Below are positions 17,476-27,914 of a stretch of DNA of 45,858 nt, in pieces. How positions within the stretch are numbered: the first letter of the stretch is position 1; the number at the start of each line of letters is the position of its first letter. The stretch is from Gammaproteobacteria bacterium (GTDB lineage Bacteria; Pseudomonadota; Gammaproteobacteria; Steroidobacterales; Steroidobacteraceae). Position numbers and translations under genes: made by a program. Location of the stretch: positions 1 to 45,858 of the forward strand of contig DAIDHD010000054.1 in the NCBI GenBank assembly GCA_027459765.1, read 5' to 3'. Under the pieces are notes generated by a model. It was not told where the DNA came from, ran no database searches, and was given only the letters and a program-made list of their open reading frames with translations.

Positions 17476-17493
17476 TGCTACATTTTTGTAGCA
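17476..17493. promoter_or_regulatory. Inverted repeat, candidate activator site for frmA
   Basis: TGCTACA and TGTAGCA form perfect 7-bp arms around TTTT. The centre is about 115 bp upstream of the -24 element, the usual place for a sigma-54 enhancer. Aligned over 18 bp it matches the xoxF upstream repeat at 12 positions (TG..ACAT..TTG...CA). It could also be a weak terminator of the preceding gene, but it lacks a following U-run. Confidence 0.6.
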
Positions 17494-17598
17494 CTTTGTG
17501 GCGATTCGGAAACAGTGCGCCGCTCCCGTCTGCGCATCCCGTCTTCGTCCCCTCGCCAAGTACCTGATCGGCTGGCCTTCTGGTCCGGCCCAATGCCC

Positions 17599-17614
17599 TG
17601 GCACGCAAGCTGCA
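17599..17614 (+). promoter_or_regulatory. Sigma-54 promoter of frmA-gfa
   Basis: TGGCACGCAAGCTGCA matches the TGGCACG-N4-TTGC(A/T) consensus except for one T to C change, with the required GG-N10-GC spacing (GG 17600-17601, GC 17612-17613). It points toward frmA. Confidence 0.82.
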
Positions 17615-17752
17615 AGCCCGCACATGCCGCTGAAAGATGGCGCCGGGAGCCGGCGGGTTCGCGTCTCCGCCGGGCACGCCACGAGGAGCGGTTTGCTCGG
17701 TCTCGAAACCTGAAGTGCGGGGCGGAGCGCATCGCATGCGGAGCTCGAGTTC

Positions 17753-18862
17753 ATGAAGACCAGAGCGGCGGTTGCCTGGGAGTCCGGGAAGCCCTTGAGC
17801 GTCGAAGAGGTCGATCTCGAGGGACCGGCGGCCGGCGAGGTGATGGTGCGCCTGGTCGCGAGCGGAGTCTGTCACACGGACGCGCTGACGCTGTCGGGCG
17901 CGGATCCCGACGGCGCCTTTCCCGTCATCCTCGGCCACGAGGGCGGGGGCGTCGTGGAGGAGGTGGGCGCCGGCGTGACCAGCGTCAAGCCGGGCGACCA
18001 CGTGATTCCGCTGTACATGCCCGAGTGCGGCGAGTGCGAGTTCTGCCGGTCCGGGCGCACCAATCTCTGCCAGCGCCTGCGCGCCACGCAGGATCGCGGC
18101 GTCATGCCGGACGGCGCGTCGCGCTTTTCGCTGCGGGGAAGGCCGATCCTGCATTACATGGGCACCAGCACCTTCGCCGAACACACCGTGTTGCCACAGA
18201 TCGCGGTGGCGAAGATCGATCCGGCGGCGCCGCTCGACAAGGCATGCCTGCTCGGCTGCGGCATCACCACCGGCATCGGCGCCGTGCTGAACACGGCCAA
18301 GGTCACGCCGGGCTCCACCGTGGCGGTGTTCGGCCTGGGCATCATCGGCCTGTCGGTGGTGCAGGGCGCCGTCATGGCGAGGGCGTCGCGCATCATCGCC
18401 ATCGACCTGAATCCCGCGAAGTGGGTGATGGCCAAGGCGCTCGGCGCGACCGATTATGTCAACCCGAAGGACTACGATGCGCCGATCCAGCAGGTCATCC
18501 TCGAGTTGACCCGCGGCGGCGTCGACTTCTCGTTCGAGTGCATCGGCAACGTGCACGTGATGCGCGCGGCCCTGGAATGCTGTCACCAGGGCTGGGGCGA
18601 GTCGGTGATCATCGGGGTTGCCGGCGCCGGCCAGCAGATCAGCATACGTCCCGCGCAGCTCGTGAACGGACGGGTCTGGCGCGGATCGGCGTTCGGTGGC
18701 GTGAAGGGGCGCTCGCAGCTGCCCGGCTACGTCGAGCGCTACATGAAGGGCGAGATCAAGATCGACGAGATGATCACCGAGGTCGTGCCGCTGGAGCGTA
18801 TCAACGACGCCTTCGAACGCATGCACGAGGGCAAGGTCATCCGTTCCGTGATTCGTTTCTGA
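17753..18862 (+). CDS. frmA: S-(hydroxymethyl)glutathione dehydrogenase (class III alcohol dehydrogenase)
   Basis: NAD-dependent zinc enzyme that oxidises the formaldehyde-glutathione adduct to S-formylglutathione in the cytoplasm; 369 residues, the usual length. Catalytic zinc ligands fit Cys40 (GVCHTD), His62 (GHEGGG) and Cys169 (GCGITTG); the structural zinc has the four cysteines of [16 protein letters not shown] (92, 95, 98, 106). The Rossmann motif is GLGIIG (194-199). ATG 17753 follows a GGAG site. A near-consensus sigma-54 promoter lies 139 bp upstream, so expression should depend on an activator, most simply the neighbouring AcoR-like protein. gfa follows after 96 nt. Confidence 0.96.
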
Positions 18863-18958
18863 CCGTCGTGGGGGAGTACGCGTACTGATAGATTGAGTGT
18901 GGATCGTGACCAATGCCGCTCGCGCGGCCTGAAGACAAAACCATCTAGAGGAAACATC

Positions 18959-19528
18959 ATGACATTTTCAATTCATCCTTCGGTCGACGGCATCCGGCAG
19001 GGAGCCCAGGGTTTCGCGGGCGGCACGCTCGTCTGCAAGTGCACCGACCGGCCGGTCAAGGTCGCGGTCAAGTCGCAGATCGCGCACAACCACGCCTGCG
19101 GCTGCACCAAGTGCTGGAAGCCGAAAGGGGCGCTGTTCTCGGTGGTCGGCGTGGTGTCGCGCGACAAGGTGACGGTGACCGAGAACGGCGACAAGCTCGC
19201 GGTGGTCGATCCGGCGGCCACGATTCAGCGGCACGCCTGCAAGGTCTGCGGCGTGCACATGTACGGGCGCATCGAGAACACCAAGCACGCCTTCTACGGC
19301 CTGGATTTCGTGCACGCCGAACTGTCGGCCGACAAGGGCTGGCAGCCGCCGCAGTTCGCGGCCTTCGTCTCCTCGATCATCGAAGGCGGCGCCGACCCTT
19401 CCATCATGGGTGCGGTGCGCGCGCGCCTCAAGGAAGTGGGGCTCGAGCCCTATGACGCCCTGTCGCCGCCGCTCATGGACGCACTGGCGACCCACGCTGC
19501 GAAGATGTCGGGCGTTCTGAAGGCCTGA
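18959..19528 (+). CDS. gfa: S-(hydroxymethyl)glutathione synthase (glutathione-dependent formaldehyde-activating enzyme)
   Basis: Speeds the condensation of formaldehyde with glutathione to give the FrmA substrate. The 189-residue protein has the zinc-binding cysteines of the GFA family: [12 protein letters not shown] (Cys26, Cys28), [16 protein letters not shown] (Cys47, 49, 52) and [13 protein letters not shown] (Cys94, 97). ATG 18959 follows AGAGGAAAC, a good ribosome site; upstream in-frame codons lack one. It lies 96 nt after frmA on the same strand and is probably co-transcribed. The two convert formaldehyde from methanol, or from sarcosine demethylation, to S-formylglutathione; a FrmB/FghA hydrolase is not in the window. 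Confidence 0.95.
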
Positions 19529-19537
19529 TGTCGCGTG

Positions 19538-19605
19538 CTGCGGCGGGCCGTCGCGCCCGCCGCAGCCTCCCTGGGGCCGTTGCGCGCCAGGCGCAGCGCG
19601 GCCCC
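19538..19605. terminator. Two GC-rich hairpins between convergent gfa and the regulator gene
   Basis: Arms CTGCGGCGGG (19538-19547) and CCCGCCGCAG (19556-19565) form the first; GGGGCCG (19573-19579) and CGGCCCC (19599-19605) form the second. Both sit in the 82-base gap between two convergent stops and so may end transcription from both sides. No clear U-run. Confidence 0.55.
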
Positions 19606-26423: not shown

Positions 26424-26462
26424 GATTTGGGCTGCGCGAGGCGTGATCGCGCTGCAACGATG

Positions 26463-26484
26463 ACTGTCACATAGTTGGGACAGT
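26463..26484. promoter_or_regulatory. Inverted repeat, candidate activator site for xoxF
   Basis: ACTGTC (26463-26468) and GACAGT (26479-26484) are perfect arms around ten bases. The centre lies about 112 bp upstream of the -24 element. The inner 18 bp, TGTCACATAGTTGGGACA, match the frmA upstream repeat at 12 positions. Confidence 0.65.
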
Positions 26485-26529
26485 GGCGCATGGAAGGTTG
26501 CGCCGTTCGTGAGGCGCGGCGCAGCGGCG

Positions 26530-27528
26530 CTACGGAATGCTGACGCCCCAGGGCAACTCGCCCACGGCGACGTTGCCGACCACTTCGAGCCGGCCGGTGT
26601 CGATCACGCTGATCGAGTTCGACCGCCCGTTGGCGACGTAGAGCTTCTTGCCGTCGTGGGTGAGCGCCATGTTCCAGGGCCGCTTGCCGACCTTGATGGT
26701 GGCGATCAGCTTGCCGGCCGCCGCGTCGAGCACCGATACCGTGCCGTCGCCGCCGTTGGTCACGAACACGCGGCTGCCGTCACGGCTGGCGATGGCGCCC
26801 GCGGGACGCAGTCCCGTGGCGATGGAGGCCGTCACCTTGCGCGCGCGCGCGTCGATCACGTCGACTCCGCCGCTCGCCTCCTGGGCCACGTAGGCCACGG
26901 CGCGATTGGGGAGCCAGGCGATCCCGCGCGGGTGCCCGGAGGTGTGAATAACGCCCACCGAACGGCCGGCGGCGACGTCGATCAGGTCGACGTCGTCGGA
27001 ATTCTCGTTGCTGGTCAGCAGCCAGCGGCCGGAACCGTCGAACTCGCAGTGTTCGGGATTCTTGCCGCGCGTGGCGATCTTGCGCTCGATCCGCCCGCTC
27101 GCGGCGTCCACCAGGGTCACCGCATTGTCGTTCTCGACGCACACGGCGATGGTCTTGCCGGAAGGCGACAGGCTCGCGGCCTCCGGCGCCTCGCCCACGG
27201 CGATGCGGGTGCCGATTTCGCCGCTGCGTACGTCGACGCTCACGAGCGCGTTGCCGAGCGCATCGACGGCGTAGGCGGTGTGATTGGCGCGGTCCGCCAC
27301 CACCGCCTGCACCTTGGCGCCGAGCTTGCCCTCGGCGGGCAGCGTCGCCACCACGCTGTCGGTGGCGGTGTCGATGACCGACACGGTGCCCGAGCCCTGA
27401 TTGCCGACGTAGGCGTATTCCCGCGCCGCATCGACGGCGGCGCGCGCGCCGGGCGCCGCGATCGCCAGCAACAGCAGCGCCGCGCCGGCGACGGAGGGAG
27501 CGGACACTCGGCCAATGATGTTGCGCAT
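26530..27528 (-). CDS. Exported YVTN-type beta-propeller protein
   Basis: 332-residue secreted seven-bladed propeller. Signal peptide MRNIIGRVSAPSVAGAALLLLAIAAPGARA, then repeats of the YVTN form: YAYVGNQGSGTVSVIDTATDSVV, VFVTNGGDGTVSVLD, LYVANGRSNSISVIDT. Such proteins often sit beside PQQ alcohol dehydrogenase genes and are annotated there as PQQ-catabolism-associated propellers; their function is not established. ATG 27528 chosen because the signal peptide starts there. It is on the same strand as xoxF and upstream of it, but the 437-base regulatory region separates them, so it is a separate unit. No sigma-54 promoter was found in front of it. Confidence 0.85.
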   Translation of the reverse strand: MRNIIGRVSAPSVAGAALLLLAIAAPGARAAVDAAREYAYVGNQGSGTVSVIDTATDSVVATLPAEGKLGAKVQAVVADRANHTAYAVDALGNALVSVDVRSGEIGTRIAVGEAPEAASLSPSGKTIAVCVENDNAVTLVDAASGRIERKIATRGKNPEHCEFDGSGRWLLTSNENSDDVDLIDVAAGRSVGVIHTSGHPRGIAWLPNRAVAYVAQEASGGVDVIDARARKVTASIATGLRPAGAIASRDGSRVFVTNGGDGTVSVLDAAAGKLIATIKVGKRPWNMALTHDGKKLYVANGRSNSISVIDTGRLEVVGNVAVGELPWGVSIP

Positions 27529-27737
27529 GCACTGTCTCGCGGTTCGGATGGGTGGTCGCGCCGCCGGGCGGCGTAGCGAAAGCGCGAAATGCTGCAATGG
27601 GCCTTCGCCCTGCGTCAAGGCGCGTGGCGCGGATCGCCGCTAGCGAGATTCATGATTCTCGCCGCGACGGCCCGTCGGTTGCGCACGAGCGGCGCACGGC
27701 AGATGTCTCGCCGCTGTGTCAGTTCGCGCCGCCACGC

Positions 27738-27753
27738 TGTCACGAATATGACA
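27738..27753. promoter_or_regulatory. Inverted repeat upstream of the porin promoter
   Basis: TGTCA and TGACA are perfect 5-bp arms around six bases (TGTC-N8-GACA). The centre lies about 154 bp upstream of the -24 element. It resembles the xoxF site (TGTC-N10-GACA), with two bases fewer in the spacer. Confidence 0.5.
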
Positions 27754-27898
27754 CGCCGGCGGCGGCACCGCGCTGCGGCCGTCGGGCGTTGCGGCCTGCA
27801 CACACCTGGCCGGGAAATGCCCGCACAGGCGTTCGGCAGCCTTTCCCTCCGCGGCTTGGACGCCGCCGCCACGGTGCATGCGGGAAAAGCGCAACGGC

Positions 27899-27914
27899 TG
27901 GCACGGCGCTTGCT
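27899..27914 (+). promoter_or_regulatory. Sigma-54 promoter of the porin gene
   Basis: TGGCACGGCGCTTGCT is an exact match to TGGCACG-N4-TTGC(A/T), with GG 27900-27901 and GC 27912-27913. Predicted start near 27925, giving a leader of about 88 nt. Confidence 0.88.

Follow-up and report, generated by a model that had tools for sequence, protein, structure and literature searches.

A candidate sigma-54 regulon linking a porin, an XoxF-type methanol dehydrogenase and glutathione-dependent formaldehyde oxidation in gammaproteobacteria

Can uptake, methanol oxidation and formaldehyde removal be switched on together by a single activator? The question is raised by a contig (DAIDHD010000054.1, here C57) of a gammaproteobacterial genome (GCA_027459765.1; 3.34 Mb in 83 contigs), which carries frmA, encoding S-(hydroxymethyl)glutathione dehydrogenase, xoxF, encoding a pyrroloquinoline quinone (PQQ) methanol dehydrogenase, an outer-membrane porin gene and, close by, the gene of an AAA+ enhancer-binding protein. 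The window, that is, the whole stretch of DNA analysed, is this entire contig of 45,858 bases. In it we find sigma-54 promoter sites before all three genes, inverted repeats (dyads) upstream of them, sites resembling those of integration host factor (IHF) at two of the three, and an activator with the domains of its class; rpoN is present in the genome, and these features are conserved jointly. We propose that one dedicated activator very probably opens the three promoters, those of the porin, xoxF-xoxJ-xoxG and frmA-gfa, a reading in which the binding of the activator to the dyads, the dependence on sigma-54 and the extents of the operons are predicted from sequence.

Both strands of the window were scored against the promoter pattern TGGCACRN4TTGCW (12 specified positions, GG-N10-GC). 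The top three matches are the sites that a preliminary description of this DNA had placed before frmA, xoxF and the porin gene, and each points at its gene as described:

17599..17614, plus strand: sigma-54 promoter of frmA, TGGCACGCAAGCTGCA, 11 of 12 positions
26346..26361, minus strand: sigma-54 promoter of xoxF, TGGCACAAGCATTGCT, 12 of 12 positions
27899..27914, plus strand: sigma-54 promoter of the porin gene, TGGCACGGCGCTTGCT, 12 of 12 positions

The counts of 15, 15 and 16 matches given earlier are right for a TGGCACG pattern with the free positions counted. With chance expectations computed from the window's base composition, two perfect sites are seen in the window where 0.013 are expected, and eight in the genome where 0.94 are expected. 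The further perfect sites include a diverging pair on contig C2, one directed towards flgM-flgN and the other towards flagellar rod and hook genes, as well as sites before fliK, before a major facilitator superfamily gene and before a gene pair (aldehyde dehydrogenase and DUF779) divergent from a paralogous activator; the last, on contig C64, was assigned no gene, only open reading frames having been inspected there. When one mismatch is allowed there is no genome-wide excess (45 matches, perfect ones included; the reversed pattern gives 54), and the frmA site therefore owes its support to conservation rather than to its score. Taken alone it is no better than chance in this genome, as would be expected if the motifs were chance or decayed sequences without any role; we consider that explanation very improbable, as promoter, dyad and IHF-like site are kept by position in up to 12 genomes while the flanks have diverged.

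Conservation was examined by searching the 400 bases upstream of each start for a correctly oriented GG-N10-GC site with at least 11 of the 12 positions. Orthologues were defined by identities of at least 82% (rounded) for xoxF and at least 78% for frmA. Such a site precedes 12 of 14 xoxF orthologues vs 2 of 18 other PQQ dehydrogenases (all 18 places scored), and each of those two genes has a linked paralogous activator of 45-47% identity. The counts for frmA are 12 of 14 orthologues vs none of 36 other copies (36 of 45 places scored), which led us to reject the view that sites of this kind go with frmA in general. The corresponding Fisher tests (P = 3.7e-5 for xoxF and 7.5e-10 for frmA) overstate the independence of the data because the genomes and activators are related. 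An orthologue of the activator (75-84% identity), present in 10 of the 59 other genomes compared, accompanies 11 of the 12 site-bearing xoxF genes; in one genome with the activator, G008 of the window's genus, no xoxF orthologue was found.

The porin behaves likewise. Of 60 whole genomes, the window's own included, 16 have it. An activator of the same family is present in 15 of these, and in those 15, but not in the sixteenth, a site of at least 11 of 12 positions lies before the porin gene, at 96-145 bases from the start. The site is kept also where the porin gene lies elsewhere than in the window: in the window and G011 it stands upstream of a YVTN gene and is transcribed away from it; its divergent neighbour in eight other species of the genus is either frmA or a formylglutathione-hydrolase-like gene that precedes frmA; and five more distant carriers have it in other places. 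The sixteenth genome, G058, has neither a full-length activator match nor an 11/12 site at the porin. One contig of that genome (G058:C49; L111, L205) holds a porin gene, a xoxF-like gene and frmA, with no 11/12 sites upstream of any of them.

Enhancer-binding proteins commonly act from sites about 80-200 bp upstream of the promoter, and an intervening IHF site is common, though not universal. An inverted repeat upstream of each promoter had been reported, and dyads indeed begin at -122 (xoxF), -124 and -103 (frmA) and -162 (porin), counted from the first base of the promoter site. Their proposed form, TG..ACAT..TTG...CA, is a fit for the xoxF dyad and for the upstream one of frmA, whereas that of the porin departs from it; a 20-bp yTGy-N12-rCAr is the better description. 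The candidate sites are as follows:

17475..17494, plus strand: upstream dyad of frmA, TTGCTACATTTTTGTAGCAC, the one of the preliminary description; a dyad stands at the same place in the frmA alignment, by eye
17496..17515, plus strand: second activator-site candidate of frmA, TTGTGGCGATTCGGAAACAG, yTGT-N12-ACAs
17557..17569, minus strand: IHF-like site of the frmA promoter, 7 of 9 consensus positions in the window
26411..26423, plus strand: IHF-like site of the xoxF promoter, AATCAGCCGCTTA, 8 of 9 positions
26464..26483, minus strand: activator-site candidate of xoxF, CTGTCCCAACTATGTGACAG, matched by the composite pattern (below) in the whole genome
27703..27722, plus strand: possible second dyad of the porin gene, ATGTCTCGCCGCTGTGTCAG, weak, 6 of 8 positions
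27737..27756, plus strand: activator-site candidate of the porin gene, CTGTCACGAATATGACACGC, 6 of 8 positions

Eleven of the 12 orthologous frmA promoters have a counterpart of the second frmA dyad at -101 to -103, which fits 7 of 8 positions in ten and 6 in one. Of the 12 orthologous xoxF promoters, nine contain a perfect CTGT-N12-ACAG, at -121 to -124; the two paralogous promoters that were scanned do not. TGTCACGAAWATGACAC is common to the porin promoters of the window and of L065, and the dyads of the remaining porin promoters vary in place. For IHF, nine positions of the consensus were scored: the best match in frmA promoters falls at -41 to -43 in all 12 and reaches 8 of 9 positions in 8 of these (0.2 expected), and a site of at least 8 of 9 lies at -60 to -63 in 9 of 12 xoxF promoters (0.7 expected). 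The IHF-like sites of both genes lie between dyad and promoter. In the promoter alignments, such elements appear as islands of identity inside otherwise diverged DNA.

Dyad and promoter were also combined into a composite pattern (CTGT-N12-ACA, a gap of 78-108, TGGYAYN5YTGCW) and searched for in the 60 whole genomes. This gave 18 matches, nine at xoxF, eight at frmA and one in G054, vs 2 for a reversed control, and 17 of them cover all 11 genomes with the activator orthologue (11 of 11 vs 1 of 49 genomes). Matches at xoxF and frmA are to be expected, because the pattern was drawn from these promoters; the near absence of other matches is the informative part of the scan. The window's own frmA is missed because its dyad starts with T, and a narrower version (gap 70-100, 24 genomes), which returned seven matches (six at frmA, one in G039), missed xoxF because the xoxF gap is longer. 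The dyad pattern of the preliminary description needed correction.

Two other features of the xoxF upstream region may be recorded here. Closely upstream of the xoxF dyad stands an inverted repeat, TTGCGCCGTTCGTGAGGCGC (26498-26517), most of which is conserved in five of seven aligned promoters; in three of those five no YVTN gene was seen upstream. Among the conserved stretches of the leader of about 250 nt (26093-26346, minus strand) are a AAGGAGGGAG box and a pair of predicted stem-loops close to the start codon. A structured leader was considered and set aside as too weak to claim (39 pairs, 3 changed on both sides, covariation term -0.09), and Rfam returned nothing at gathering scores in the window.

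Is there, then, an activator to match these sites? The one that the preliminary description placed nearby is real:

19611..21599, minus strand: activator, an AcoR/DhaR-like enhancer-binding protein with a sensor region, an AAA+ domain (GAFTGA) and a Fis-type helix-turn-helix (HTH)

The protein contains the AAA+ sigma-54 interaction domain (PF00158, 8.3e-63; also PF25601), whose loop reads RGAFTGAV, and a Fis-type HTH (PF02954, 2.9e-12). At the N-terminus, residues 25-263 match DhaR (4lrx, E 5.2e-6) and residues 233-310 give a PAS match; the domain search returned no GAF match, and no NCBIfam equivalog exceeded its cut-off among the best 25 of 26 matches listed. The predicted structure, with a mean predicted local distance difference test score (pLDDT) of 55.6, was not used for fold searches. 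In this genome rpoN is single copy. The region upstream of the activator gene was scanned for dyads in 34 rows (cut at 7 of 8 positions; L097 not scorable): in five of them (L066, L070, L092, L182, L185) the gene has a perfect CTGT-N12-ACAG upstream and no sigma-54 site, which suggests self-control of the activator in some species, though not in the window. The 50%-identical paralogue of the activator (G000:C74:1-12000, L074) diverges from the aldehyde dehydrogenase and DUF779 pair, which has its own perfect sigma-54 site.

Relatives of the activator offer a natural test of whether loop and sites go together. A scan of genome contigs with the activator gave 19 loci (by label, 7 Gammaproteobacteria, 5 Proteobacteria, 1 Steroidobacteraceae and 6 Rudaea/Dokdonella/Rhodanobacteraceae/Coralloluteibacterium). 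The named carriers of the GAFTGA-type system are metagenome-assembled genomes. In a tree of 34 rows, 27 belong to the wider activator clade; the other seven, a paralogous clade, were not entered in the loop and site count. GAFTGA is not intact in 13 of the 27 (L093, L094, L182, L095-L098 and L184-L189): the loop reads GKFANT in L093 and GAFPGA in L094 (Rudaea cellulosilytica), is shortened and altered in L182, and reads GAFTDA in ten. Also set aside in the count were L184, L096, L097 and L098, where no linked frmA, xoxF or porin gene was seen, and L095 and L100, which have no scorable start. Of the loci with GAFTGA, 12 of 13 have a linked xoxF, frmA or porin gene with a site, vs none of the 8 loci without it; because the loop label needs to change only twice on the tree, these counts amount to about two events rather than 21 independent ones. 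All six genomes tested (L092-L096, L098) keep rpoN, and two of the eight loci lacking both loop and site lie in genomes among these. The idea of a regulon of porin, xoxF and frmA under the nearby activator, first put forward in the preliminary description, is supported by the joint conservation of activator, dyad and promoter, and of IHF-like sites at two of the three promoters, and by the absence of the sites at unlinked frmA, at most unlinked PQQ-dehydrogenase copies and at the scorable loci whose activator has presumably lost the sigma-54 contact loop.

Besides the relatedness of the genomes, the origin of the composite pattern, the lack of excess at one mismatch and the small number of loop changes, several observations weigh against this reading. 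The xoxF and frmA orthologues of L093 and L094 all lack a site (the only orthologues to do so), the frmA genes of the G010, G018 and G025 clusters have no site of their own, L183 has an intact GAFTGA and no site at an frmA 5.4 kb away, and the xoxF of G027 (75% identity) has none though it shares a contig with a paralogous activator. No porin match was found in G012 or in G013 despite an activator of the family, the G013 contig ending in a porin-like start (L088). Three orthologous xoxF promoters (L103, L092, L104) are without a dyad at the expected place, the window's porin dyad fits only 6 of 8 positions, IHF-like sites are in effect absent from porin promoters (1 of 15 vs 0.4 expected), and no dyad of at least 7 of 8 positions lies upstream of the window's activator gene. 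Finally, G010 has a xoxF site, yet the one type of activator present there is 46% identical and is not the orthologue. This last case would suit a different explanation, in which the sites are real sigma-54 promoters driven mainly by another activator, such as the 50% paralogue on contig C74 or an NtrC-type protein, and the linked activator serves elsewhere; it would also accommodate the seven matches to the activator in its own genome (itself included), one of which is the paralogue beside a perfect site. Dyad plus promoter nevertheless tracks the linked orthologue across genomes, and the eight scorable loci that have lost GAFTGA are without sites even where rpoN is kept, and on these grounds control mainly by another activator seems improbable.

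The loci that have lost the loop suggest a further step. A xoxF-like dyad, GTGTCACGCC..., is discernible by eye upstream of xoxF in L093 and L094, where it fits 6 of 8 positions and falls below the scan cut of 7. According to passages in the literature, mutation of GAFTGA abolishes activation in most cases, and some proteins lacking GAFTGA act at sigma-70 promoters. We give roughly even chances to a fuller hypothesis: a hitherto undescribed C1-sensing activator couples entry through the porin, lanthanide methanol oxidation and the removal of formaldehyde under sigma-54, and its xanthomonad orthologues have been released from that sigma factor. In them GAFTGA has been lost, the linked frmA and xoxF are without sites, and in some of these loci dyad-like sites are left before xoxF or before the regulator gene. 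If true, these lineages would hold a natural record of a regulator changing its sigma-factor dependence with its C1 gene neighbourhood kept; as the paired loss of loop and sites includes a culture-collection strain, Rudaea cellulosilytica DSM 22992, the change would be directly testable.

What would such a regulon do? The names given earlier to frmA, xoxF and the porin gene hold, and the genes of the cluster are as follows:

17753..18862, plus strand: frmA, S-(hydroxymethyl)glutathione dehydrogenase / class III alcohol dehydrogenase (TIGR02818, 678.7 bits, cut-off 543.95)
18893..19528, plus strand: gfa, S-(hydroxymethyl)glutathione synthase family (TIGR02820, 315.9 bits, cut-off 234.55), 30 bases from frmA
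21838..22407, minus strand: xoxG-like cytochrome c (PF13442/PF00034), named by position
22468..24165, minus strand: xoxJ-like periplasmic binding protein fused to ankyrin repeats
24209..26092, minus strand: xoxF, PQQ methanol dehydrogenase of the lanthanide type (TIGR03075, 581.4 bits, cut-off 480.05)
28013..29278, plus strand: outer-membrane porin (PF13609 Porin_4, 69.5 bits, cut-off 27)

The gfa gene is probably cotranscribed with frmA. On the other strand, xoxF is followed by the xoxJ-like gene, the cytochrome c gene and, after 238 bases, the activator gene. The cytochrome c(L) MoxG model falls below its cut-off for the xoxG-like protein, and the xoxJ-like protein reaches 23.8 bits with SBP_bac_3 (below the 26.4 cut-off) and has a long C-terminal ankyrin region (Ank_2, 123.7 bits). 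Relatives of the genus encode this fusion protein too, at 59-76% identity and next to xoxF or the activator gene. The C1 region is flanked by two resistance-nodulation-division (RND; AcrB-type) efflux pumps, at 12834-15905 and 35028-38171 (both minus strand), and a nearby open reading frame, 30281-34963, has an outer-membrane efflux protein domain.

The best solved relatives of the xoxF product are 7o6z, which we take to be an XoxF-type entry, and 4mae, followed by 6dam and 6oc5, both named XoxF. Its DYD (in DQWDYDG) aligns with 7o6z and marks what is presumably the place of the extra lanthanide-binding aspartate. This aspartate is described as needed for lanthanide binding in a passage of PMC10875860. 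The enzyme thus appears to be a methanol dehydrogenase closest to the XoxF type, with predicted lanthanide-dependent activity. Alternatively, the regulon may be real without being one for methanol as such. Its substrate, on which XoxF would act and which the porin would import, would then be some other alcohol, or formaldehyde set free from methoxylated compounds. The paralogous activator does adjoin an aldehyde dehydrogenase; the dehydrogenase itself, however, is closest to methanol dehydrogenases, XoxF among them, and glutathione-dependent formaldehyde oxidation, which one would expect to come next, belongs to the same regulon, so that we hold another substrate to be unlikely, if less so than the alternatives weighed above.

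For a regulon serving methanol, then, the following sequence of events may be envisaged. The N-terminal sensor region of the activator would receive a C1-related signal, the first candidates being methanol, formaldehyde and the glutathione adduct of formaldehyde. The protein would assemble at dyads of the CTGT-N12-ACAG type 100-160 bp upstream of the three promoters, with IHF bending the DNA at xoxF and frmA, and its GAFTGA loop would contact sigma-54 RNA polymerase at the -24/-12 sites, where ATP hydrolysis would open the promoters. The outcome would be joint expression of the outer-membrane porin, of xoxF-xoxJ-xoxG, the operon for methanol oxidation in the periplasm, and of frmA-gfa, the operon for formaldehyde oxidation in the cytoplasm. 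If this is true, these gammaproteobacteria would have an all-or-none C1 programme, the activator would be a candidate methanol or formaldehyde sensor, and the porin would be implicated in the uptake of methanol or lanthanides.

How does this arrangement compare with known systems? Control of xoxF in known methylotrophs is exerted by two-component systems of the MxbDM/MxaY type together with a lanthanide switch. MxbDM/MxaY and PedS2/PedR2 resemble the present activator in controlling the same type of dehydrogenase, but to our knowledge neither is an AAA+ sigma-54 activator shared with frmA. PedS2/PedR2 is described, in published passages, as controlling pedE/pedH. FhlA, AcoR and DhaR are sensor, AAA+ and HTH activators, an architecture that the protein here appears to share (its N-terminus matches DhaR 4lrx), with other targets. 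FhlA is a formate-linked activator, according to a passage of PMC6540204. NtrC of Caulobacter and Rhodobacter, enhancer-binding proteins lacking GAFTGA (passage in PMC10274813), have lost the sigma-54 contact loop and kept a regulatory role, as we propose for the xanthomonad relatives; they differ in family and regulon, and in the relatives the linked genes are also without sigma-54 sites. In Azospirillum brasilense the PQQ alcohol dehydrogenase gene exaA is likewise sigma-54 dependent (Singh et al. 2017, as cited in a passage of PMC6115532); it is, however, glycerol-induced and under a LuxR-type regulator, and that passage gives no AAA+ activator with xoxF, frmA and a porin. MmoR offers another comparison: MmoR and rpoN control soluble methane monooxygenase, rpoN being needed in Methylosinus trichosporium, and the -24/-12 promoter linked to MmoR reads YTGGCACGrNNNTTGCW (passages in PMC5874634). 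There too a sigma-54 activator (in Methylocella and Methyloferula one that carries a GAF domain) adjoins its C1-oxidation targets, but the target is methane monooxygenase, and the passages of PMC5874634 mention xoxF only for the lanthanide response and not as a target. The preliminary description knew of no sigma-54 control of xoxF with frmA, and we likewise found no paper describing sigma-54 control of xoxF or of frmA, nor of the two with a porin, in the abstract openings and passages of the literature searched. The kind of system is thus already known from MmoR and FhlA, and xoxF, frmA and a porin as its joint predicted targets appear, as far as that literature extends, to be new.

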